A DNA stretch of 64,000 bases, taken from positions 152,360-216,359 of the forward strand of contig JAKAVV010000001.1 of NCBI GenBank assembly GCA_021817145.1, read 5' to 3'. Each line of letters starts with the position of its first letter. Positions within the stretch are counted from its first letter, which is position 1. A model generated the notes under the pieces. The model saw nothing but the letters and a program-made list of their open reading frames with translations. It made no database searches and was not told the origin of the DNA. Both the position numbers and the translations under genes were made by a program. The DNA comes from a bacterium (lineage in GTDB: Bacteria; Vulcanimicrobiota; JABDET01). Shown one piece after another: positions 6,432-38,846 of the stretch.

Positions 6432-7397
6432 ATGAATTTATCAGGCAGAAGTTTTATCGTTATGAATGATTTTTCCGAGAATGAACTGCGTGAGGTTCTT
6501 AAGCTTTCACAAGAGCTTAAAAATGAGTTAAAGAATAATAAATCTCGCAAGTATCTTGAAGGTAGAACTTTGGCTATGATTTTTGAAAAGCCTTCCACCC
6601 GAACAAGGGTCAGTTTTGAAACAGGAATGTTTCAATTAGGCGGACATGCTCTTTATCTTTCTGCTTCTGATCTCCAATTGGGCAGGGGAGAAACGATTGA
6701 AGACACAGCAAAAGTTTTATCAGGGTATGTGGACTGCATTATGGCAAGGACTTTTAAACATGATACTGCTGCTAAACTTGCAGAATTTGCGACAGTTCCC
6801 GTGATCAATGGATTAAGCGATTTAGAGCATCCTTGTCAAATCCTGGCTGATTTGTTAACCATTTATGAAGAAAAAAGAGATTTTAAAGGGTTAAAAATTG
6901 CCTATATTGGGGACGGAAACAATGTGGCTCATTCTTTAATGATAGGCTGCGCAAAACTGGGAATGAATGTTTCAGTGGCTTCCCCCAAAGGGTATGCTCC
7001 AGATCAGAAGATTACAGCAGTAGCCCATCAGGAAGCAGAAAATCATGGAGGGATTCTTGAAATCACGACAGACCCAGAAAAAGCCGCTCATCAGGCTGAT
7101 ATTCTTTATACAGATGTCTGGGTCAGTATGGGACAGGATAAAGAACAAGAAGAGAGATTGAAAGTGTTTAAACCTTATCAGATTAATAAAGCACTGCTCT
7201 CAAAAGCCAAGAATGACTCTATTGTTCTTCACTGTCTGCCTGCACATAGAGGACTTGAAATTACAGGAGAGGTTATGGATGGAGAGCGCTCCCGAATCTT
7301 TCAGCAGGCTGAAAACCGCCTTCATACCCAAAAAGCGCTGCTCTGTTCACTGATTAAAAACGTAAGCATGCTGTGGGAGCCTTCTCTAAAAAGCTGA
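6432..7397 (+). CDS. argF: Ornithine carbamoyltransferase (ORF 6345..7397; likely start MNLSGRSF at 6432)
   Basis: STRTRVSFETGMFQLGG, HPCQILADL, HCLPAHRG. Confidence 0.93.
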   Translation: MNLSGRSFIVMNDFSENELREVLKLSQELKNELKNNKSRKYLEGRTLAMIFEKPSTRTRVSFETGMFQLGGHALYLSASDLQLGRGETIEDTAKVLSGYVDCIMARTFKHDTAAKLAEFATVPVINGLSDLEHPCQILADLLTIYEEKRDFKGLKIAYIGDGNNVAHSLMIGCAKLGMNVSVASPKGYAPDQKITAVAHQEAENHGGILEITTDPEKAAHQADILYTDVWVSMGQDKEQEERLKVFKPYQINKALLSKAKNDSIVLHCLPAHRGLEITGEVMDGERSRIFQQAENRLHTQKALLCSLIKNVSMLWEPSLKS

Positions 7398-7425
7398 ATC
7401 AGAAGCTTATTTTCGGGTATAAGGA

Positions 7426-7656
7426 TTAAAATTGCCCTGACTGCCTGAATTTCACTCCCAGCATAATGCCTTTCATAAAATCATCGGCTTCTCCTGGGCT
7501 GAAAACAGAACTGCTTGGAGTAAACTGATCCTGACCATAAGAAGAAGGAGAGCTGGTTCCTGCCTGGATATTGGGTTGAGGTTGAGATTGAAATCCCCCT
7601 GTCCTTTCCCTAAGGGCTTGCATTGATCTGACTGAGGAGTTTGTCTGTATATTCAT
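7426..7656 (-). CDS. Small Ser/Gln-rich hypothetical protein (76 aa)
   Basis: Intact ORF between argF and the response regulator; no recognised domain. Confidence 0.4.
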   Translation of the reverse strand: MNIQTNSSVRSMQALRERTGGFQSQPQPNIQAGTSSPSSYGQDQFTPSSSVFSPGEADDFMKGIMLGVKFRQSGQF

Positions 7657-7708
7657 GGCTCTAGATTTATTCTAGCATACCCTGGGGAAAAGAACAATAA
7701 ACAATAAG

Positions 7709-8428
7709 TTAAGATTGTAAACTTTTTGTTACCATTTCTTTTCCTTTTTTGATTCCGATTAATTTCTGCTGCATGGCGACAACAACAGCATGGGTTCTAT
7801 CGTTGACATGGAGTTTCTGGAAGATATTGCTGATGTGGTTTTTTATCGTCCTTTCTGTAATGGAGAGTTTTTGGGCAATCTCTTTATTGGATAATCCGTC
7901 AGCAACCCAGTTTAAAACTTCAATTTCCCGAGGAGTTAAGTGATCATAAACTTTTTCTTCAAGTCCTTGAGGAGTTTCATCTTTTTCATAAAATTCTCTA
8001 AATTCTTTCAGCAAAATGCTGGCAATTCGACTGGAAAGCAGAGCCTCCCCTTGAGAAATGGATCGAATGGCTCGCAGCAGCTGCTGAGGGGACTCATCTT
8101 TCAATAAATATCCCATAGCCCCTGCCTTTATGGCGGGAATTACAGCATTTGGATCATCGGCAATGGTCAGCATAATGACTTGAACCCCAGGATTCTGTTT
8201 ACGAATCAGTCGAGTGGCTTTGATTCCATCCAAGGCAGGCAGGGTAATGTCCATAAGCACCACATCAGGAAGGGTCTCTCCTATTTTTCGGATGGCATCA
8301 TTTCCATTTAATGCGTATCCTATGACCTCTATGTCTGGTTCTTTTTCCAGGACTCTTTTTAATCCCTCAATAAAGAAAAGCTGATCGTCAACAATAAAAA
8401 TTCGGGTCGAATTTTTCATGATTTGCAA
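7709..8428 (-). CDS. NarL/FixJ-family response regulator (receiver + LuxR HTH)
   Basis: IFIVDDQ…DVVLMDITLPALDG…LTPREIEVLNWVADGLSNKEIAQKLSITERTIKNHISNIFQKL. Confidence 0.95.
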   Translation of the reverse strand: MQIMKNSTRIFIVDDQLFFIEGLKRVLEKEPDIEVIGYALNGNDAIRKIGETLPDVVLMDITLPALDGIKATRLIRKQNPGVQVIMLTIADDPNAVIPAIKAGAMGYLLKDESPQQLLRAIRSISQGEALLSSRIASILLKEFREFYEKDETPQGLEEKVYDHLTPREIEVLNWVADGLSNKEIAQKLSITERTIKNHISNIFQKLHVNDRTHAVVVAMQQKLIGIKKGKEMVTKSLQS

Positions 8429-9063
8429 GGAACCATGACTTTAAGCATAGTTCCTCTTCCGTTTTCAGATTCAATGATCAGTTCTCCCCCCATTTGTTCG
8501 GCTCGTTCTTTTATAAATTTTAAACCAAAATGGGGAGAGTTATTGGTTTTTTCCGTGAGGATCATTCCTGTTCCATTATCTTTTATAGAAGCAGAAAGAG
8601 CGTATTTTTGAATTTTCAGCGAAACTTCGCAAAATGTGGCTTGAGCGTGTTTTAAAATATTGTGCAGTCCTTCCTGGATAAACAATTGAACAAAATTTCT
8701 GACTTCGCGCGGCACTTCTGAATCTTCTCCTTCAGTTAGAAATCTGACTGGAATTTGAGCTCGTTCTTTGAAATCGTTGATAGAATCTCGGATCACTGGG
8801 ATCAAGGGCCACGGCTCTTCATTTCTAAGTTCATGGATCGCGTGCCTGATTTCAGTAACCGCAATTTTAATTGCCTGGCGAGCTCCTTCTAGATCTTCAG
8901 ACTTTCCTTCTTGTTCATATAAGTTTAAAAGGAATAGAGCATGGGAAAGAGTTTGAGCTGCTCGTGAATGAAGCTCTTCGCCAATTCTTCTTCTTTCTTC
9001 TTGAAGAAGTTCTTCCGGGCTTAAATTCGAATGGTCCTTTGCAGTGGAGCTGGAATTTCTCAT
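8416..9063 (-). CDS. Cytoplasmic HisKA_3-type sensor histidine kinase (ORF 8416..9153; likely start at 9063, downstream of the upp stop)
   Basis: ERRRIGEELHSRAAQTLSH dimerisation/phosphoacceptor motif; HATPase motifs QEGLHNILKHAQAT, DNGTGM, FGLKFIKERAEQMGG; no TM segment. Confidence 0.87.
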   Translation of the reverse strand: MRNSSSTAKDHSNLSPEELLQEERRRIGEELHSRAAQTLSHALFLLNLYEQEGKSEDLEGARQAIKIAVTEIRHAIHELRNEEPWPLIPVIRDSINDFKERAQIPVRFLTEGEDSEVPREVRNFVQLFIQEGLHNILKHAQATFCEVSLKIQKYALSASIKDNGTGMILTEKTNNSPHFGLKFIKERAEQMGGELIIESENGRGTMLKVMVPCKS

Positions 9064-9103
9064 TGATAACTGTATTCTTACCAGGGGTTCATCATCCCTG
9101 CCA

Positions 9104-9730
9104 TTACTGAGTTCCAAAAAGTCTGTCCCCAGCATCCCCAAGTCCTGGCACAATATACCCTTTTTTGTTTAAAACTTCATCGACTGCTGCTGTGAAGATT
9201 GGAATATTTGGGTGTATTTTGGTGATTTCTTCAATTCCTTTTCTGGAAGCAATCAAACAGATCAGAGAAATTTCTTTTCCTCCTATTTTTTTAATATAGT
9301 CAATGGCAGCGATAGAAGATCCTCCTGTTGCCAACATGGGATCTAAAATAAAAAGATGACGTTCTGATAAATCTTCTGGAAGTTTTGCGTAATATTCAAC
9401 TGGCTTTAAGGTGTCGTGTTCTCGATAAATGCCCAGATGTCCGACTTTTGCCGCCGGGATCAGTTTTAAGATCCCATTCACCATTCCTAATCCTGCGCGT
9501 AAAATAGGGACAAGACCCAGTTTTTTTCCAGAGATGACCTTTGCGCTGCATTCTCCTAATGGGGTTTCAACTCGAATTTTTTCAAGAGGAAGATTTCGAG
9601 TGGCTTCATAAGCCATCAGGGTTGAGATTTCTTCAACCAGATCTCTAAAATCTTTTGGACCAGTGTTTTTGTCTCTAAGAATACTGATTTTATGCTGCAC
9701 CAGAGGATGGGTGATAAGTTCAACAGACAT
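9104..9730 (-). CDS. upp: Uracil phosphoribosyltransferase
   Basis: [46 protein letters not shown]. Confidence 0.95.
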
Positions 9731-10172
9731 TTCTCAGTTCCTGATTTTGAATTTTTTCGATTCTTCGTTTATGATGGCCGCCTTGAAAATCAGTTTCCAG
9801 CCAGGCTTTCACAATGGCTTTTGCGACTTCTCCGCCAATAATTCTTCCTCCCATTGTCAGGATATTCGCATTATTATGGGCGCTGCTGAAATACGCGCTG
9901 ACAGGTTCATGGCATAAAGCAGCTCGTATTCCTGGAAATTTATTGGCTGATATGCTCATTCCTATCCCTGTGCCGCAGATGAGAATACCTTTTTGAGCTG
10001 TTTTTCTTAAAATTGAGGAGGCGACTTTTTCAGCAATATCGGGATAATCCACAGGATCCATTGAAAAGCATCCACAGTCCTCCAGCTCTATTTTTAGAGA
10101 CTGGATCAAGTATTCTTTAATGGTCTCTTTTAGAAGATACCCTGCATGGTCACTTCCGATCGCTATTTTCAC
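9720..10172 (-). CDS. rpiB: Ribose 5-phosphate isomerase B
   Basis: [33 protein letters not shown]. Confidence 0.95.
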
Positions 10173-10623
10173 TGTTTTTAATCCTTTCGAACGCTATTTC
10201 TACCGCTTTTTTTATTTCACGGTAGGTTTTTTCATAAACTTCTAAAGAGGTTCCAATTGGATCTTCAATATCCCCCTTTTCATGCACAAATTCCTTGAGG
10301 GTAAAGAGTTTTCCTTGCATTTGCTGAAATTGTTTTAGAATTTCTTGTTTCTGCTTTTCAGTCATAGTTAAAATGAGGTAGCTCTCTGCCGCCAATTCTG
10401 GGGTTAAAGGTTGGCTGACATGGGAGGAAATGTTAATTCCATCTTTTTGACACAATTCAATCGCGATTTCCGATGCTTTCATTCCATAAGCAGCATTTGT
10501 CCCAGCGGAAAACCCTTTTAAATGATCCCCTAAATTCCTATTGTCTGCCAGAGAGTTGAAATACCCCTCTGCCATCGGGCTTCTACAGGTATTACCAGCG
10601 CAAACAAAAACGATTTTTTTCAT
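10150..10623 (-). CDS. Low-molecular-weight protein tyrosine phosphatase family
   Basis: KIVFVCAGNTCRSPMAEG (CX5RS P-loop), DIEDPIG. Confidence 0.9.
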   Translation of the reverse strand: MKKIVFVCAGNTCRSPMAEGYFNSLADNRNLGDHLKGFSAGTNAAYGMKASEIAIELCQKDGINISSHVSQPLTPELAAESYLILTMTEKQKQEILKQFQQMQGKLFTLKEFVHEKGDIEDPIGTSLEVYEKTYREIKKAVEIAFERIKNSENSDRK

Positions 10624-28896: not shown

Positions 28897-31746
28897 TCAT
28901 TCTTTTCCGCGAATCAGTTCATTATTGAGGATTGGCGCCTTTTTTATTCCTAAAAAGAAATGAATAATACAGGGTAAAACAACTAAAGCTTGAAAAGTGA
29001 CAAGGAATAATCCAACAGTCATCGTAAATCCAAGACTTCTTAAACCACTGCTGGTAAAAAGCAGAGCTGTAAACCCTGAAATACTTGTTAATGCGCTCAA
29101 TAAAACCGATTTTCCTGTGCTAGTTGAAAAAATTGAGGCTTCCCCTTTTTCTCGATAGCGGTTCACCACATATACTCCAAAAGCCACTCCAATCCCTAAA
29201 ATTACAGGGAGTGTCAGCAAATTCGCAGGGTTAAACGCTGAATGAGTTAGTACCATAATTCCAAGCAGCCATAGAAATCCAATGGCAAGAGGAGTTAAAG
29301 TTAATAATGTTAGACTGAACTGTCTGAATTGAAGGAAAGTCACAATCAGAATGACGATGAGAGCGATCCAGGCTGCATGTTGGTAACTATTAAGCATCAC
29401 CCGCAGCGTCTCATAAATGAGAATAGGGGTTCCTGTAACATGGGGGTCCACTTCTCTTAACTGCGCGACAAATCGGTCTAGATTAACCCGAACCCAGATA
29501 TTGGTTGCAGGGAAAATTTCTATGGCGATTTTCCCGCCTTTTTTGCTGATAAATTCATTTTTTACATAAGGAGGAAGATCGCTTAAAGTAATAATGCGAT
29601 TTGGAATCCCATGTTTTATTAGCAGCAGTCCTTGATTTAATTCATTAAAGAATTTCCCCTGGAAAAGAGATAAAGCTTGTCTTGTTTTTTCTGGATCTGT
29701 TTTTTTTACCGTTTCCAAAAAGTTGGAAATAGTTTGCAGAAAAGAAGTTAATCCTGAATGAATTTCAGCCAATTGAGTTTCAGTGGATGAACCAGGCAGA
29801 AGATACCTTCCAGGAAACATAAAGATTGAAAAAAAGCCGAAAGCGCTCCCTGCATTCGTGGTGATCCTAACTGCTTTATGAACAGATTTTTTCATCTTTT
29901 CAAAAGTTTGAGTTAATGCTTGCACGTTTACCTTTGAAGTGGGGGCTGGATCAGTCAGATGGACCCCTGCCATTTCTTTTTGGATCTTCAGCAAGATCGG
30001 CATTTTTTTCTTTTGCTGTTGAGGTATAAAAGGGAGAGGGCTTATAATTCTTCCCACAGTTGAAAGGGTTTCTAATTGATTGACATAAAGCTGCGCTTGT
30101 TGAGGGTTTTTTGCTACAGCAACAGCGACAAGAGAAGATTGATTGGCGATTTTTATCATTTTCAGCTCTGTTGTGACAGAGCTGACGTGGGGGAATAAAT
30201 GCAAGATGTCTCGATCAAAAGAGATGTCTTTCGCTTTTATTCCAAAAAATAAAGTGAGTAAAGCAGCTCCCATAACAATGTAAGAAGCATTTTTTAAAAA
30301 AAATCGTTCCAAAGTTTCACCAATCTGGGGAAGGCGGAGAGAAATCGCTTTTGCTTTCCCCTTTTTTTCGGAAAAGATCAAAAGCGCGGGCAGGATAGTT
30401 ATAGTTGAAAAAAAGCAGAGCAGAAGAGAGCCACCTGTCGCTGTTCCTAATTCAGCAATCCCTTTATAATCTGTTAGGGAAACAGCGAAAAAACCGAGAG
30501 CCATGGTTAATGCTGCTGTTAAAAGCCCTGCTCCTGTTGAAAGATAAGTGGCATGAATCGCTTCCTCAGGGGTTTTCAACAAGGTTCTTTCCTCATTATA
30601 TCTCCCCATAAATTGAATTGAAAAATCAATTGCCAATCCAATTAACATGGGGAAAATGCTGATTGTAAAAATATTTAAATACTTAACAGAAAAAGCGATC
30701 CATCCTAATGACCAGCCAATTCCAATAAAAAGAGAAATAATGGCTAAAAATGGCTTTCTCCATTCCATAAAACCTAAAATAAAAATAGTTGAAGATAAGA
30801 GAAGAGCAAGGATTCCAGCAAAAAGAATATCATGTTTGGAAACCTGCATTGCCTGCACTCCCATAACTGGTTCCCCTGTTAAGTGAACATGGACATCAGG
30901 GAAAAAAGGTTTCATTTCTTTTACCGCTTTTTGAACTGCTTCAACAGCTGGGATGACTTGCCCAATTCCTTGTTTATTTTTTGCTGGTGTGGCTAGAAGT
31001 ATGGCATATTTTCCATTTTTTAGAGTAAAATAAATACGCTGATTGAGAAGAGTAAAGTTTTGGCTTTTTCCAAGTTTAAAGTTTAAATTAAAAAAATGCT
31101 GCAGTGGATTGGAGTTCTGCACTCCTCCTTTTTGGATTGATTTTGTCATGGAAGTAACAAGCCCTTCCATTTCTTTAAGTCCTAAAACGTAAGATTTTAA
31201 ATTGTGAGGCAGCTGCTTTGACTGGGTTTGGGATCCTGCTTTGTTTTTACCAAATTGATAAATCGTGTTCCAGAAGTGGACTAAATCTTCTCGGTTTTGG
31301 ATGGAGAGGAGAAGGGGTTTCATAACCCTTAATAGAGAAGAGATTTTTTTAAGCTGTTTCGAAGGGAGATATTCCATTGCCCAGGATTCAAAGGGTTTAA
31401 TATTATAAGAATAGAGGACAGTCGCTAAATAAGGGTTGGGTTTTATTTTTTTGGACAGAGCTTTCAAAAACTTTAGATTCTCTTTTGGATCTTTCCCATG
31501 AGTTACAACATAAATTTGAGGTTCCTGGTCAAATTCTTTTGAAAAATGATAGTAGGTTTTACTGAAAGAAGCCCCATTGCTGTTGAGCCCCGCAAAATTA
31601 GGAAGAAAAACAATGGTCTTATAAGCATAAAAAGAGCCACAAAATGCGACTGCCAGCCCAATCAGTAAAACCCCTGAAGGATAATTTAAGATAATATGTA
31701 GAAACCTGTCTCTTAATTTCTCAACCCAGGTTTTCATCAGGTTCAT
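28897..31746 (-). CDS. RND/MMPL-superfamily lipid exporter, HpnN-like
   Basis: 949 aa, two TM bundles with large periplasmic loops; GLAIDFSIQFMGRYNEER and GIGVAFGVYVVNRYREKG motifs; adjacent to HpnK-like gene. Confidence 0.85.
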   Translation of the reverse strand: MNLMKTWVEKLRDRFLHIILNYPSGVLLIGLAVAFCGSFYAYKTIVFLPNFAGLNSNGASFSKTYYHFSKEFDQEPQIYVVTHGKDPKENLKFLKALSKKIKPNPYLATVLYSYNIKPFESWAMEYLPSKQLKKISSLLRVMKPLLLSIQNREDLVHFWNTIYQFGKNKAGSQTQSKQLPHNLKSYVLGLKEMEGLVTSMTKSIQKGGVQNSNPLQHFFNLNFKLGKSQNFTLLNQRIYFTLKNGKYAILLATPAKNKQGIGQVIPAVEAVQKAVKEMKPFFPDVHVHLTGEPVMGVQAMQVSKHDILFAGILALLLSSTIFILGFMEWRKPFLAIISLFIGIGWSLGWIAFSVKYLNIFTISIFPMLIGLAIDFSIQFMGRYNEERTLLKTPEEAIHATYLSTGAGLLTAALTMALGFFAVSLTDYKGIAELGTATGGSLLLCFFSTITILPALLIFSEKKGKAKAISLRLPQIGETLERFFLKNASYIVMGAALLTLFFGIKAKDISFDRDILHLFPHVSSVTTELKMIKIANQSSLVAVAVAKNPQQAQLYVNQLETLSTVGRIISPLPFIPQQQKKKMPILLKIQKEMAGVHLTDPAPTSKVNVQALTQTFEKMKKSVHKAVRITTNAGSAFGFFSIFMFPGRYLLPGSSTETQLAEIHSGLTSFLQTISNFLETVKKTDPEKTRQALSLFQGKFFNELNQGLLLIKHGIPNRIITLSDLPPYVKNEFISKKGGKIAIEIFPATNIWVRVNLDRFVAQLREVDPHVTGTPILIYETLRVMLNSYQHAAWIALIVILIVTFLQFRQFSLTLLTLTPLAIGFLWLLGIMVLTHSAFNPANLLTLPVILGIGVAFGVYVVNRYREKGEASIFSTSTGKSVLLSALTSISGFTALLFTSSGLRSLGFTMTVGLFLVTFQALVVLPCIIHFFLGIKKAPILNNELIRGKE

Positions 31747-31781
31747 ATTTTTATCTTTATGCTTCCTTTATCTTGTTTTAT

Positions 31782-33131
31782 CTAGAAAATTTTAACCACG
31801 CTGAACTGCACTGTTAAATACTTTCTTGGATTTTTCCGAAAATCTTTCATAAATTTAGCCAGCTGTCCTGAAAGTTCTGTGATATTATTGTAAAGGGTTT
31901 TATCTTTTAATAATAATCCAAGGCTTCCCTGTCCATTTTGAAGCCTTTTTGAAACAGCGGCAAGGGATGCCATGGCTTGAGAAGCATTCTGATAAAATTG
32001 TTTATTATTGGCAAGTTGTCCAAGACTTCCTTTTCCTTCATTGATCTTTTTTAAAAGGCTGGCTGCATTGGCAAAAGTTTCGCTTGAATTATTATAGAGA
32101 GAAGGGTTTGTTAAGAGCTGATGAACTGCTCCATTTTTGGTATTGGCTGTTACTGCCAGATGGTTCATTTTGGCGATAAGACCATTCATGTTATTGTAAA
32201 GAGAAGGATCTTTGAGAAGATGCCCCATGGTTCCTTTCCCTTTTTCGATATTGACCATGACATGTGTTGCAGTATTGTAAAGAGTAGGATTCGTAAAAAA
32301 CTTTCCAAGTGTTCCTTTCCCTTCTTGAATGGAATGAAGCATTTCACCCGTATAGAGTGTCGCCTCAGCAGTCGCTTTTAAGGCTTTGTTGAAATTATCA
32401 TAAACAGACTGGCTTTTAACCAGTTTGCCAAGGGTTCCTTTCCCATGCCGGACATCACTGGCAATTTCACTGGTTACTTGCTGAAGGGAGTTTGTAATCC
32501 CAGCAGTTTGGGCAACAATTCTATTAAAACTAGGGGACTCCTGGCTTGGAATTTCAATTGCTTCCAGATGATGGGCTCCAGGGATAAAAGGAAGGGAAGG
32601 ATAATTCAATGTTCCAGGAGTAATTGCTATCACTTCCTGTCCTCCAAAAATTCCTTGAGGAAACAGCATTGCCACTGAATCTGCTCGAATAAGAGGCGCA
32701 TTATCTTTTGAAATGCTCATTAAAACAACAATGTGTTTTAGTCGGGATTGAAGATCCCGATAGCGCTGCTGCAGTTTTCTGTAGGTCTGGGATTGAGCGT
32801 GGTTCTGCAGATTTAAATGGTCCATTTGATTTTTTAAATCTTTCAGTTTCTGGACAGTAGATTTATCAATTGTAATATTTGATAATTTATTTGGGGGTAT
32901 AAAACTGATTTTAGTAACGGATCCAATTTGAACCCCGGACATCATCACTGGATCTCCAACAGCCAGCCCTCTTACAGAAGCAAATAAGGAACGGGCGTAA
33001 ACCGTTGAAGTGAATATCTTCTCGGGTTTTACGAATAAAACAAAAAAGATGATAATGGCGATTCCAGTGAGGAGAAATACCCCAACCCGAACATCGCTCC
33101 ATGTAATATTTTTTTTCCTGGATGAAAGCAT
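31782..33131 (-). CDS. MlaD/MCE-domain lipid transport protein with C-terminal degenerate repeats
   Basis: N-terminal TM, VYARSLFASVRGLAVGDPVMMSGVQIGSVTKISF MCE core; repeated GKGTLGxLLxxPSLYNN. Confidence 0.9.
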   Translation of the reverse strand: MLSSRKKNITWSDVRVGVFLLTGIAIIIFFVLFVKPEKIFTSTVYARSLFASVRGLAVGDPVMMSGVQIGSVTKISFIPPNKLSNITIDKSTVQKLKDLKNQMDHLNLQNHAQSQTYRKLQQRYRDLQSRLKHIVVLMSISKDNAPLIRADSVAMLFPQGIFGGQEVIAITPGTLNYPSLPFIPGAHHLEAIEIPSQESPSFNRIVAQTAGITNSLQQVTSEIASDVRHGKGTLGKLVKSQSVYDNFNKALKATAEATLYTGEMLHSIQEGKGTLGKFFTNPTLYNTATHVMVNIEKGKGTMGHLLKDPSLYNNMNGLIAKMNHLAVTANTKNGAVHQLLTNPSLYNNSSETFANAASLLKKINEGKGSLGQLANNKQFYQNASQAMASLAAVSKRLQNGQGSLGLLLKDKTLYNNITELSGQLAKFMKDFRKNPRKYLTVQFSVVKIF

Positions 33132-33219
33132 CTAAAAATCCTCCTTATTATAAATGAATTGTTGTTTTATTACTCTATTGGCAGCGGATGAATCTTTTCC
33201 GTTTCAGCGCGATTATCCT

Positions 33220-34041
33220 TTAGTGAGACGCTAGAATTTTTAAACTGGAAAGGAATTCTTGGACGTAAGGATCGGTTGAATTTAAAAGTTTCTGCCAATC
33301 CCCTTCTGCCAGAATTTGTCCGTCTTTTAAAATAACCAGCCGTGTTTTTTTTGTGCAAGTATGATCGGAACTGGGTTTTACCTGAATCCCTGTGGAAGTT
33401 TTATGGGCGCAGTGGGTTACCATTTGAAAACTGCTGATGAGATCCTGGGTTACAATGATAGAAGTTACTTCTTCCATGTCTCTGAGTCTGATGATAAACT
33501 CAGTAATATGACTGGCAGTTATGGGATCCAGTCCTGCTGTTGGCTCATCATAAAGCATGATACGATGATCTCCCGCCATCCCGCGGGCAATGGCAACTCT
33601 TCGTTTCATTCCTCCCGATAATTCTGAAGGAACTTTAAAAGCGTCCTCTTCTTTAAGATCTACCATTTGTAAGAGATGTTTTGTTTTTTCAAAAATCTCT
33701 TCTTCTGAGAGCTTCCCTTCTTCCCTCATGCGATAGGCAATGTTGTCATAAACAGTTAAAGAATCAAAAAGGGATGATTCTTGAAAAACCATTCCCATCC
33801 ATTTTCTAACAGGAACAAGCTCTTCTTCTTTTAAAGAAGTAATATTGAGATTATTGACAAGAATCTCTCCTTCATCCGGTTCGTCCAGTCTGAGAATCAA
33901 ACGGAGAATTGTGGATTTTCCCTGTCCGCTTCCCCCCAGAATAATAACTGTTTCTTCTTCTTGAATTGTTAAATTAATGCCGCGGAGAACCTCTTGATTT
34001 CCAAATCCTTTCCAAACGTTTTTTAATTCAATAAGAGCCAT
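33220..34041 (-). CDS. mlaF: MlaF-like ABC transporter ATPase
   Basis: LGGSGQGKSTILRLI, SELSGGMKRRVAIARGMA, LYDEPTAGLDP. Confidence 0.93.
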   Translation of the reverse strand: MALIELKNVWKGFGNQEVLRGINLTIQEEETVIILGGSGQGKSTILRLILRLDEPDEGEILVNNLNITSLKEEELVPVRKWMGMVFQESSLFDSLTVYDNIAYRMREEGKLSEEEIFEKTKHLLQMVDLKEEDAFKVPSELSGGMKRRVAIARGMAGDHRIMLYDEPTAGLDPITASHITEFIIRLRDMEEVTSIIVTQDLISSFQMVTHCAHKTSTGIQVKPSSDHTCTKKTRLVILKDGQILAEGDWQKLLNSTDPYVQEFLSSLKILASH

Positions 34042-34042
34042 A

Positions 34043-34828
34043 TTAAAAAGTTAAATGGGTGAAAAAACTGATCCCTTTGGTCAAGAAAAAATCACTGGCA
34101 ATAATTAAAACTGAAGAAATAACAACAGCATGAGTGGTGCTTTTTCCAATTCCTCTTGTACCTCCTGTTGTTTTTAATCCTTGATAACAGGCAGTTACAG
34201 AGATTAAAATGGCAAAGGTAATCGCCTTGAAAAAACTATAGTATAAATCATGCAGAACAATGTGATCTTTAACAGACATCCAGTAGATATGGTAACTTTG
34301 ATGCACGGTCAGCCAGGTCATCACCCACCCGCTCCAAATAGAGACCAGGTCTGTTATTCCTGTTAATAGAGGAAGAGCGATTAAACAGGCTAAAACTCTT
34401 GGAGTAATCAGTTTTTTAATATAATCGGTTCCAAGGGATCTCAAAGCATCTACTTGTTGAGAAATGACCATTCCCCCTAATTCAGAAGCGATTCCAGACC
34501 CAACTCTCCCTGAAAACATTAAAGCAGCCAGCACAGGACCCAATTCTCGAATCATGGTAAAAGACACAACCTGTCCCATTGTGTTCGTTGTGCCGTACTG
34601 CTTTGAAACACTGAGGATCTGGAATGCAAAAACAGCTCCTGTAAATAGACTGGTAAGGAGAATTACAATCAGAGAACCAAGCCCTATGGATTCCAACTGT
34701 TCGACGAGATCATCAAAATAAAACGGTTTTGACAATACATTTCGGACAGCTTTCCAGAACAAGAAGAAAGCCTCTTGAATTTCAAGCAGAATAATTTTAA
34801 AATTTTCAAGAAAATCTAAATTTTCCAT
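34043..34828 (-). CDS. mlaE: MlaE-like permease (ORF extends to 35209; likely start MENLDFLENF at 34828 or MKRKIAEAAL at 34936)
   Basis: QFxLxRELGPVLAALMFSGRVGSGIASELGGMVISQQVDALRSLG family core; longer ORF overlaps the decaheme gene antisense. Confidence 0.9.
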   Translation of the reverse strand: MENLDFLENFKIILLEIQEAFFLFWKAVRNVLSKPFYFDDLVEQLESIGLGSLIVILLTSLFTGAVFAFQILSVSKQYGTTNTMGQVVSFTMIRELGPVLAALMFSGRVGSGIASELGGMVISQQVDALRSLGTDYIKKLITPRVLACLIALPLLTGITDLVSIWSGWVMTWLTVHQSYHIYWMSVKDHIVLHDLYYSFFKAITFAILISVTACYQGLKTTGGTRGIGKSTTHAVVISSVLIIASDFFLTKGISFFTHLTF

Positions 34829-34996
34829 ACTGTTAAAATCGCTATTTTCGAAATTACCACTTATGCTGTTAAATCCCTTTTTTAAGAAGAGCAGCCAGAG
34901 ATGATAAAGGGCTGCTTCAGCTATTTTTCTTTTCATAAAGGTTATTTTTACCCATAAAGAAGGATTTTTTTTTAAAGGATTGAATGGGGTAGAAAA

Positions 34997-35012
34997 TGTG
35001 ATCTTTATCACA
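34997..35012. promoter_or_regulatory. CRP/FNR-family-like palindrome 1
   Basis: TGTGATCTTTATCACA (TGTGAT-N4-ATCACA), matching TGTGA-N6-TCACA architecture. Confidence 0.65.
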
Positions 35013-35025
35013 TGATTTAAATCAT
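35012..35025. promoter_or_regulatory. CRP/FNR-family-like palindrome 2
   Basis: ATGATTTAAATCAT, perfect 14-bp palindrome with TGAT-N4-ATCA core. Confidence 0.55.
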
Positions 35026-35093
35026 ACCTTAAAGTCGTAGAATTAAGCTGCAGCAGCCACGAAAAAGTAGAAGAATCCTGCTGGAGGTGGGAA

Positions 35094-36083
35094 ATGAAAG
35101 GAAAAAGGAATAATGAAAGCAGAAAGAGATTTCTGTTTCCAATTCTCCTGTTTTTAGTTTTTTCAATCTGTTTTATTTTCTTGAGGAATGCCCAAGCAGC
35201 CGGCAACATTACTCCAAGGAGACCCCATTTTACATCGAATCGAAATGGGAAAGTTCCAAAGTATTGGCTTAAATTGGAAAATCAAAAAAAATATGCTTGG
35301 TTAAAAAAAGCGAAATTTGTAGGGAAAGCAGTTTGTTTTGACTGTCATCCCCAGCCAGGAGATGAACCCGGTCTGTCACGACCAGAGTGGGACATGGATG
35401 TTCATGAAAAAATAGCTGGGACTTTCCAATGTGAAGCCTGCCATGGTCCGGCTTCTCTTCATGTCAAAGCTAATGCCGCTAAATTTATTCTTGATCCGAC
35501 TTATCTCTCTAAACCGATCCAAAATGAAATGTGTCAGTCCTGCCATTTGCAGGGAATGGTGGCTTTTCATGCAGGAGCGAATCTTTCTTGTTTAAGCTGT
35601 CATCAATTTCACACTTATGATAATCCTTACGATTTGAAAATTCGCCCTGAACGGGATTTATGCTATAAATGTCATCCTGGAGTCCGCTCACAATTTCAGA
35701 TGTACACCCATCATCCTGTGAATGAAGGGATCATGAACTGCACAGACTGCCATGCAGCCCATTTTACTTCTATGTTCAATGAAATTGCGGGGCAATCCGC
35801 TGTCATGGGCACCAGAGCTTCCATTGAATCCTGCGGGAAATGCCATCCTGCTGAAGCAGGTCCTTATGTGGCTTCTCCAACAGCTTTAGAAGGATGTATT
35901 GGGTGCCACATGCCCCATGGTTCTCCTTTCTCTAATTTAGAGAGAATGCCACAGCCTGCTCTCTGCATTAAATGCCATGAACCAAGCTCTTTCCAGTATG
36001 GATTAGTCACAATGGGAATGAAATGCACGAACTGTCATCCTGATATTCATGGGTCTGATCACACCAGATATCTGTTTCAATAA
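35094..36083 (+). CDS. Periplasmic decaheme c-type cytochrome, MtrA/DmsE/PioA family
   Basis: Signal peptide; 10 CXXCH motifs (CFDCH, CEACH, CQSCH, CLSCH, CYKCH, CTDCH, CGKCH, CIGCH, CIKCH, CTNCH); RBS GGAGGTG. Confidence 0.95.
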   Translation: MKGKRNNESRKRFLFPILLFLVFSICFIFLRNAQAAGNITPRRPHFTSNRNGKVPKYWLKLENQKKYAWLKKAKFVGKAVCFDCHPQPGDEPGLSRPEWDMDVHEKIAGTFQCEACHGPASLHVKANAAKFILDPTYLSKPIQNEMCQSCHLQGMVAFHAGANLSCLSCHQFHTYDNPYDLKIRPERDLCYKCHPGVRSQFQMYTHHPVNEGIMNCTDCHAAHFTSMFNEIAGQSAVMGTRASIESCGKCHPAEAGPYVASPTALEGCIGCHMPHGSPFSNLERMPQPALCIKCHEPSSFQYGLVTMGMKCTNCHPDIHGSDHTRYLFQ

Positions 36084-36095
36084 AGGAGGGATATA

Positions 36096-38783
36096 ATGAA
36101 AAAGGGATATATAAAAAAAATATTGATGGCGCTTGTTTTAGGAATCTTTTTGATTCAGCCGATCTTTGCCCAGGTTTTTCTTCCTGCTCCACCTGCTACT
36201 TTTGGGCTTCCAATCCCGAATTATGGAGTTCCTTCCAATCAGGCGATTCATGGACAGTGGAATGAAACCTCTATTATTAATGGAATTATTGCAGCCATTC
36301 TTGCCAATAACCCCAATGTTTCGATGAATGCTTCTTTTAATGTGAATACCATTACTGGAAATTCAGGGATTCTGGATCCTTATGGACCTCTGCAGAATGG
36401 TTTTTATCTTAACTCTCTGGATTTTGAGTCTCTTTTAGGAGCAAAAACAACCCTTTTTGCTCATTTGAGAAATCAGGATGATTTTAACAGGGCAGCGTAC
36501 CTTAATATTCAGGATGGGCATTTAAAAGAAGGGTTCAGATATACTGAGCTCATTGATAGAAAAGTTCCTGAAGACATCATTCCAAATACTAGCGGTATTG
36601 ATGTTACGCCCTGGTTTGGGTTCCCTGATGCAGCAAAAGCTCCTCAGTTAGCCAGTGTGACCACCTTAAATTATGGCGCTGGGTTTAATCCGAATCAGTA
36701 TTTTTATCCGATCATTGATAATTTCTTTGTGAATGATCTGCAGTACACCTATAATAATGGATTGAGTTTTTTTGCCACAGATTGGTTGAGAAGCCAGACA
36801 GGTCAGCAGTTCCTCAGCATTTCTACAACAAACAATTTGAATGAGTTTAATAATGGAAGAGATAACAATCTTTCTGTGATTACAGAAGGTGCTGCTTATA
36901 CCAGTGCAGGAAACGACCAGTTTTATGCTGCGACAACTGCTCGGAGCTGGAATAATCAAGATCAGCTCAATAAGCAGGTTGTTAGTTTGGCTGCTGAAGG
37001 GGGAAACCCAGATCCAACCGGAAATCTCATTTATACTGATACCCGCTGGTCTATCAATCAAGCAGGTCTCCATATTCCTCTCAATCGTTCTATTTCTTTC
37101 CATGGAACCTGGAAAAGATGGGATAAAATCTCAGATGGAGTTTTTGGAACTGGGTTTAATTCTATCCTAGGTCCAACCATCGCAGGGTTTACCAATGCGA
37201 CTAATACTCCTACGAATTTACAGCCTGGAATGGATGTGAATCAATATCGGGCAGGATTTACTTTTGCTCTTGACCCTAATGATGCCCTCTTTTTTGATGT
37301 CGGTCATTGGGAAGAGATTCCAAATCAAGGGGTAGAAGCTCAAACTCTGCAGAACAGGAATAATGCGGATTTATTTTTCCGCCACACTTTTGGCAATCAA
37401 TCTTTAAGTCTTTATGGAGCATGGGAACAGGATCATTATGACAGAACTGTGGATTATCGAGATATTCGTTACTGGACCGCTTTTAACCCATTAGTCAATA
37501 CCACTTTTGGAATGGGAACTGATGGCAGCGCCACATTTTATGAAAATAGCACAGGTGGGCTCCCTTATATTGTGTTTACCCCTGCCCCTGGGAGCGGGCT
37601 TTCCCCTTTTACACAGCCTGTTGCTAATATTCCATGCGTTCCAGGGGTTATTGCGGATCAGTGTGGAACCAACAGCATTACTTATCCTGTTGATGGGTTT
37701 GTGAACATTACTCCTGCTGAAGGGAAACTATATGGCCTTATTCCTGGAACTTATCCTGTGGCAGGTCTTGTTGGAAGGGAATCGGTTGCCTTTGATACTT
37801 ATGTTGGGCAGCTTCTGTTAAATGGACCCATTGTTCGACATCTGAACTACAGCTTTAAACTTGCAAAAACCATGGCAAATGGATCTCTTTTTAGAACAGA
37901 TCCACAGGATCAGTGGAATGGAAATCTCCATTTAGATTGGACCCCTACGAATAATCTGACTTTAGGGGCGGGATATCGCTTAGTGGATAATAAAAGCAAT
38001 AATTCAGTCTGGATCTATCCTTTCCAGTACCGCTCCAATACATTAGATTTTACCGCGAATTATGCGGTTGCCAGAAAGGTTTCTTTATCTGCTTCTTACT
38101 GGAATTACATCCAGAACATTTATTTCACATCCCCTGTTTTAAACACAGGAACTCAAAACTTTATTGAACCGCCAACCTTTGGGGCGACAGGTCCTGTTCC
38201 AGGGTTTGGGAATCTTCTGGATACATTCCTTTTCACCCCATTTTATCAGTATTATGCTTCCCCACTCAATACTGTGAATGATTCATTAAGCAATTCAGAT
38301 CAAGAGATCATGTTTGGGATTAATTTTGATTTAAATAAAAATTGGCATGTCAGCGCTAATTACGATCATTCAGAACCCAGATCGTTCCAGAATGTTTATA
38401 TGGCAAATCCGGTTTTTTATGATTTAGGTCCTTTTACTGCTCCAACAGGACCCAATGTTCCTGATGGGTTTGTTTCTTCAGAACCTGTGCTGGACAATAT
38501 GCAGGCAGTGAATGGAAGAGAAAATATCTGGTCCTTGAATTTTTCCAGAGAACTTCCAGGTCATGCCAGTCTTGGAATCAGCGGAGCCTACATGGTCTTT
38601 AGAAACCTGGCTCCAAGAATTACGGGGGTCAGTCTGCCTTTAGGCTGCACTTCAACTGTCCCTCCAGGATATGGATGCGGAGCCCCTGTTCCAGGGTATG
38701 GAACCAATGTTTTTGAATATGGTCAAAGTTTGGATGATGGATCTATCTTTTCCACTGCCATTACTTACAGTAAGAGTTTTTAA
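36096..38783 (+). CDS. MtrB/PioB-family outer-membrane beta-barrel
   Basis: Signal peptide; 895 aa aromatic/Asn-rich alternating beta pattern ending SKSF; 12 bp downstream of the decaheme gene. Confidence 0.88.
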   Translation: MKKGYIKKILMALVLGIFLIQPIFAQVFLPAPPATFGLPIPNYGVPSNQAIHGQWNETSIINGIIAAILANNPNVSMNASFNVNTITGNSGILDPYGPLQNGFYLNSLDFESLLGAKTTLFAHLRNQDDFNRAAYLNIQDGHLKEGFRYTELIDRKVPEDIIPNTSGIDVTPWFGFPDAAKAPQLASVTTLNYGAGFNPNQYFYPIIDNFFVNDLQYTYNNGLSFFATDWLRSQTGQQFLSISTTNNLNEFNNGRDNNLSVITEGAAYTSAGNDQFYAATTARSWNNQDQLNKQVVSLAAEGGNPDPTGNLIYTDTRWSINQAGLHIPLNRSISFHGTWKRWDKISDGVFGTGFNSILGPTIAGFTNATNTPTNLQPGMDVNQYRAGFTFALDPNDALFFDVGHWEEIPNQGVEAQTLQNRNNADLFFRHTFGNQSLSLYGAWEQDHYDRTVDYRDIRYWTAFNPLVNTTFGMGTDGSATFYENSTGGLPYIVFTPAPGSGLSPFTQPVANIPCVPGVIADQCGTNSITYPVDGFVNITPAEGKLYGLIPGTYPVAGLVGRESVAFDTYVGQLLLNGPIVRHLNYSFKLAKTMANGSLFRTDPQDQWNGNLHLDWTPTNNLTLGAGYRLVDNKSNNSVWIYPFQYRSNTLDFTANYAVARKVSLSASYWNYIQNIYFTSPVLNTGTQNFIEPPTFGATGPVPGFGNLLDTFLFTPFYQYYASPLNTVNDSLSNSDQEIMFGINFDLNKNWHVSANYDHSEPRSFQNVYMANPVFYDLGPFTAPTGPNVPDGFVSSEPVLDNMQAVNGRENIWSLNFSRELPGHASLGISGAYMVFRNLAPRITGVSLPLGCTSTVPPGYGCGAPVPGYGTNVFEYGQSLDDGSIFSTAITYSKSF

Positions 38784-38808: not shown

Positions 38809-38846
38809 AAGAGGCTGAAAGGGGAACAAACTCCTTTCAGCCTCTT
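38809..38846. terminator. Bidirectional intrinsic terminator between convergent genes
   Basis: Perfect 14-bp stem AAGAGGCTGAAAGG…CCTTTCAGCCTCTT with 10-nt loop; T-rich flank on the minus side. Confidence 0.75.

Follow-up and report, generated by a model that had tools for sequence, protein, structure and literature searches.

We analyzed a 64,000-nucleotide stretch of bacterial DNA (hereafter, the window) and identified a conserved two-gene unit under selection, consisting of an MtrA-related decaheme cytochrome gene followed by a gene for a barrel-like protein. With a probability of roughly two in three, the two genes encode an outer-membrane electron conduit resembling MtrAB, MtoAB or PioAB in function.

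The two-gene unit

The first gene (35094..36083, + strand) encodes a secreted protein of 329 aa, which was assigned from the ORF list, family models, a PDB match and a tree to the MtrA/DmsE/GSU2203-like decaheme c-type cytochromes. The protein starts with a hydrophobic signal sequence and contains exactly 10 CXXCH motifs (residues 81, 113, 147, 166, 190, 216, 247, 268, 291 and 311); no other ORF of more than 60 codons in the window contains any. Paired_CXXCH_1 matched the protein in five stretches, and this doubled-CXXCH arrangement in a secreted protein is that of the MtrA/DmsE/PioA family. The best PDB match was MtrA of S. baltica (6r2q_A, E 1e-24, a chain labeled 'Cystathionine beta-synthase' in the PDB list). 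The best-scoring NCBIfam model was GSU2203 (NF041028, 170.2 bits, cut-off 325), and the DmsE model (TIGR03508) gave 158.8 bits, below its cut-off of 192.2. Judged from its sequence, the protein is thus best described as a divergent MtrA/DmsE relative below the family cut-offs. The AlphaFold2 model of the cytochrome was built on an alignment of 12 rows (pLDDT 45.2), and a Foldseek search with this low-confidence model found no match. An origin from nitrite/nitrate reductases was rejected, as the NrfB and NrfH models gave only 20–24 bits.

These results bear on the initial annotation, which had proposed a two-gene porin-cytochrome pair starting at 34997 and had noted that a grouping of the cytochrome with unrelated nitrite/nitrate cytochromes would speak against it. 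The pair is well supported, with MtrA as the best PDB match and no such grouping found, and the ten CXXCH motifs, the signal peptide and the 12-bp distance to the barrel gene were all confirmed in the ORF analysis. The start had to be corrected: the frame is not open at 34997, and the ATG of the cytochrome lies downstream, at 35094. Divergent from the cytochrome gene, the window also contains genes for an HpnN-like RND protein and for MCE/Mla-type lipid transport (MlaD, MlaF and MlaE-like; 28897-35209), and their order is kept in the sister species.

The second gene (36096..38783, + strand) encodes a protein of 895 aa with a signal sequence, for which the ORF list, family models, profile search and strand alternation were considered. 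Its C-terminus, ...STAITYSKSF, combines a terminal aromatic residue with alternation, as is usual for outer-membrane barrels; the barrel of MtrB, for comparison, has 26 strands. The protein contains only four cysteines (514, 523, 851 and 861), confirming the earlier remark that an N-terminal CXXC is absent. Neither PF11854 nor TIGR03509 (MtrB/PioB) matched the window barrel or any of its three homologues (four window-type barrels in all) at E ≤ 10, whereas PF11854 detected the canonical MtrB of the same genome with 184.8 bits as a positive control. For the same four proteins, a Pfam search at E ≤ 10 returned no family, only isolated matches of single homologues with E > 0.07, and the MtrB chains of the PDB did not match the window barrel. 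The 'MtrB/PioB-like' label of the initial annotation therefore failed the HMM check: the window barrel lies outside the current MtrB/PioB models, and a canonical decaheme and MtrB pair occupies another locus (L019). A single model, GSU2204 (NF041027), gave matches to all four barrels, weak and in the same region (E 0.003 for the window protein, 6.6e-5 at best; 16.3 bits for the window barrel against a cut-off of 350). One homologue was also matched by EpsL, an outer-membrane protein.

We compared strand alternation with shuffled sequences using a home-made count, which gave z = –0.1 for the single window barrel, 2.5 for the barrel of the second related pair in the genome (module 2, described below) and 3.3–4.1 for MtrB controls; averaged over the four homologues, the profile z was 1.7–2.6. 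Because this signal is absent in the single sequence and modest in the profile, the barrel nature of the product is probable rather than proven, its basis being homology and context. The AlphaFold2 model of the barrel was built on an alignment of 4 rows (mean pLDDT 25.6). A profile–profile comparison of window-type with canonical barrels found no match, and because the method also missed the link between two known MtrB families, this result was not counted as evidence.

GGAGG-type ribosome-binding sites precede both genes (GGAGG at 35083..35087 for the cytochrome and AGGAGG at 36084..36089 for the barrel, both + strand), the second within the 12-nt gap between the cytochrome stop and the start of the barrel ORF. 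The barrel gene is followed by a convergent gene, and a 13-bp inverted repeat between the two, AGAGGCTGAAAGG...CCTTTCAGCCTCT (38810..38845, without strand; found by eye in the sequence, loop 10), is a probable terminator closing the unit. In the sister species, both genes occur at the same place between the same neighbors, and the dN/dS values of 0.063 and 0.125, which are rough because dS exceeds 1, indicate purifying selection. Since both genes are kept with the same neighbors and under purifying selection, a chance arrangement is excluded.

Heme ligands of the cytochrome

In the crystal structure of MtrCAB, every heme is bis-His ligated (PMC7198977). MtrA and nine other decahemes that are not of the window type contain at least one His in each of the ten segments following a CXXCH. 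In the pair of the window (module 1), inter-heme segment 7 (35847..35894, + strand; segment comparison and alignment) contains no His in either species, and segment 9 (35979..36023, + strand; segment comparison) contains none in the whole window-type clade; His is present in both segments in all others compared. Residue P262 of the window cytochrome stands where His is kept in 10 of 12 aligned sequences. M309 (in GMK) of segment 9 is shared by the module 1 cytochromes of the two species but not by module 2, and spare His residues occur elsewhere in the window cytochrome. Because segments 7 and 9 lack His, a distal His may be missing for as many as two hemes of the window cytochrome, and the ligation of these hemes is possibly altered. 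In such non-His ligation the cytochrome may resemble PioA, for which His/Met ligation has been published according to the account of Li et al. 2020 in PMC12203936; the same source gives titration up to +250 mV for PioA and from –400 to –100 mV for MtrA.

Related genes in the genome and the phylum

The genome (2.66 Mb, assembly 97% complete) contains three decaheme genes, and each is immediately followed by the gene for a large probable barrel. Module 2 (contig C37, L018) comprises a decaheme (9642-10589) and a barrel (6825-9629) that shares 39% identity with that of the window. One gene beyond it, a diheme protein of 632 aa is encoded that belongs to no known family (L018:3931-5829). A heme-bearing domain without a known family, WxNxAT...GxVKG...CxRCHxxRxG, occurs twice in this protein and once in a 535-aa protein whose gene precedes a cytochrome c biogenesis-like gene (L057:1141-2745). 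The third pair (contig C35, L019) is canonical: its decaheme reaches 254 bits against the DmsE model, which exceeds the cut-off, and its barrel 185 bits against MtrB_PioB. It adjoins a cupredoxin, a monoheme cytochrome and a QrcABCD-like complex (pentaheme, molybdopterin protein, FeS and NrfD; L019:3714-13680), and this cluster is a possible route from the outer membrane to quinone without CymA. Modules 1 and 2 also occur in the sister species, as does the canonical pair together with its Qrc-like complex; a second cluster of the Qrc-like kind there includes an MtrB-type barrel (L034, L035). Each of the four window-type barrels is accordingly paired with a window-type decaheme.

We searched the genome for the partners that the initial annotation had suggested, namely MtrC/OmcA, Cyc2, CymA and PioC, and found a Cyc2-like protein. 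No OmcA/MtrC was matched genome-wide (TIGR03507, E ≤ 0.1; assembly 97% complete), so the earlier statement that the window lacks a surface cytochrome of this type holds for the genome as well. The search for NapC/CymA, including ImoA-type NapC/NirT, yielded nothing but an overlap with a decaheme, below the cut-off, and neither HiPIP/PioC nor RuBisCO was found in the genome at the threshold used. Three heme-copper oxidases and an alternative complex III are present in this oxygen-respiring bacterium.

The Cyc2-like protein (contig C37, L053:580-1962) is a secreted monoheme protein of 461 aa containing ALPAFARQLDVNCNECHTVWPRL. The published Cyc2 signature is AXPXFAR[Q/K][T/Y] before CXXCH and PXL after it (PMC8406198), and the protein fits it except for an L at the [T/Y] position. 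As no Pfam or NCBIfam family matched it, the name rests on motif, size and layout, from which a monoheme fused porin is predicted. Its gene, ~8.5 kb from module 2 and not beside the window pair, has a cupredoxin and a cytochrome-oxidase cluster as neighbors. The protein is present in both members of the genus (92% identity with the sister species), and its N-terminal heme region is matched by proteins in many genomes of the phylum.

A profile of the window-type barrel was run against 149 genomes of the phylum and matched only two, both of this genus; within that set, the barrel family is thus found only in this genus. The profile of the window-type cytochrome matched five of the same 149 genomes. 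In the other three, which belong to three other families, each related decaheme is followed directly by a large barrel-like ORF (L084, L085, L086, L087 and L089); of these five ORFs, three gave hits to the GSU2204 model and one is recognized by PF11854. At one of these loci, an ORF of 541 aa with 22 CXXCH lies upstream of the decaheme and barrel pair (L087:2840-4462). One genome, from another family of the phylum than that of the window (G004), also has a decaheme followed by two large OmcA/MtrC-type decahemes (L088:413-7779). A search of genome contigs yielded nothing beyond the sister MAG FK4.bin95 and a remote multiheme protein from KSB1. Among viral contigs and plasmids, there was no relative of the window barrel, and the sole match of the window cytochrome was in mtrCAB of a Photobacterium megaplasmid. 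A tree of 15 decahemes placed all window-type cytochromes, four in number, in one clade (100/99) on a long branch; the MtrA-type proteins of Shewanella and Photobacterium and the DmsE-type cytochromes of this genus formed a separate group (94/98). The deeper joins are unsure because several branches are long.

Function and direction of electron flow

Like MtrAB of Shewanella (6R2Q) and DmsEF, the window pair consists of a paired-CXXCH decaheme and a large probable barrel; unlike them, it has a barrel beyond the reach of the MtrB models and PDB chains, and a cytochrome that is below the DmsE cut-off (159 versus 192 bits) and lacks His in two segments. The lack of an MtrC/OmcA decaheme in its genome further separates it from MtrCAB. 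The two-gene layout without a surface cytochrome is shared with MtoAB of Sideroxydans and PioAB of Rhodopseudomonas palustris, whereas the genome differs from those systems in having no detected HiPIP (PioC) or NapC/CymA-type protein, and the barrel in falling outside the MtrB/PioB models. GSU2203/GSU2204 of Geobacter provided the best-scoring model for the cytochrome and the one touched by all four barrels; however, both window proteins are far below the cut-offs (170 versus 325 and 16 versus 350 bits), and the window barrel contains no CXXCH.

In the proposed conduit, the large barrel would enclose the secreted decaheme cytochrome, whose heme chain would conduct across the outer membrane and link periplasm and cell surface with no additional cytochrome on the outside. 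The recurrent pairing of such decahemes with barrel genes, in this genus and in three other families, supports a conduit of the porin-cytochrome kind. Net flow would be inward, with Fe(II) as one possible electron source and periplasmic carriers and the oxidases as recipients. Given a conduit, such uptake is somewhat the likelier direction; it is favored because of the Cyc2-like protein, the three oxidases, the ligand changes and the lack of MtrC and CymA. Electrons can pass in either direction through porin-cytochrome pairs (PMC8805035, PMC10734462). The initial annotation had left the direction open, which stands, but the genome content and the missing heme-ligand His tilt it towards uptake. 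Against this reading stand the failure to find RuBisCO, which leaves lithoautotrophy conjectural, and the position of the Cyc2-like gene away from the window pair.

The same conduit could instead export electrons under low oxygen to Fe(III), Mn(IV) or other acceptors, as do MtrAB and the Geobacter porin-cytochrome pairs. Geobacter is a metal reducer, and export retains some weight because the closest NCBIfam model of the cytochrome is its GSU2203 and RuBisCO is missing. Moreover, a decaheme of another family of the same phylum does stand beside real OmcA/MtrC proteins, and an Mtr-type pair alone does not reveal direction (PMC8805035). This genome, however, has neither OmcA/MtrC nor NapC/CymA and does have aerobic oxidases and the Cyc2-like protein, and we consider export unlikely. 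Still less probable is an exchange of electrons other than with metals, through a periplasmic or surface redox partner or by direct cell-to-cell transfer. No recognizable catalytic partner adjoins the two-gene unit, and the diheme protein near module 2 belongs to no family, both of which would fit such a role; an extracellular reductase of the DmsAB kind is nevertheless lacking beside the pair.

A further alternative concerns membership rather than function: the pair may be a true MtrAB/MtoAB pair whose barrel has diverged beyond the models. The barrels paired with decahemes are very divergent, as seen in the related genomes, where so few pass PF11854 and more match GSU2204, and the profile–profile comparison was too insensitive even for known MtrBs. 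Against this, PF11854 recognizes the genome's own MtrB and none of the four window-type barrels, and the window-type cytochromes form a clade apart from both Shewanella MtrA and the genome's DmsE-type cytochrome. We regard such divergence as a doubtful but serious possibility. The most specific form of the uptake reading is a separate decaheme conduit family, here in one genus, in which two distal-His losses would yield two higher-potential hemes and Fe(II) electrons would enter without a surface cytochrome, beside the canonical MtrAB-Qrc-like route and the Cyc2-like protein; with all these parts taken together, it is rather unlikely.

Surveys of extracellular electron transfer that count MtrB/PioB matches would miss the window-type barrel, of which there are two copies per genome. 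Barrels paired with decahemes are probably under-counted as a kind, because those in three other families of the phylum mostly fail PF11854. The missing His residues link heme ligation to the direction of electron flow, a link that is directly testable.
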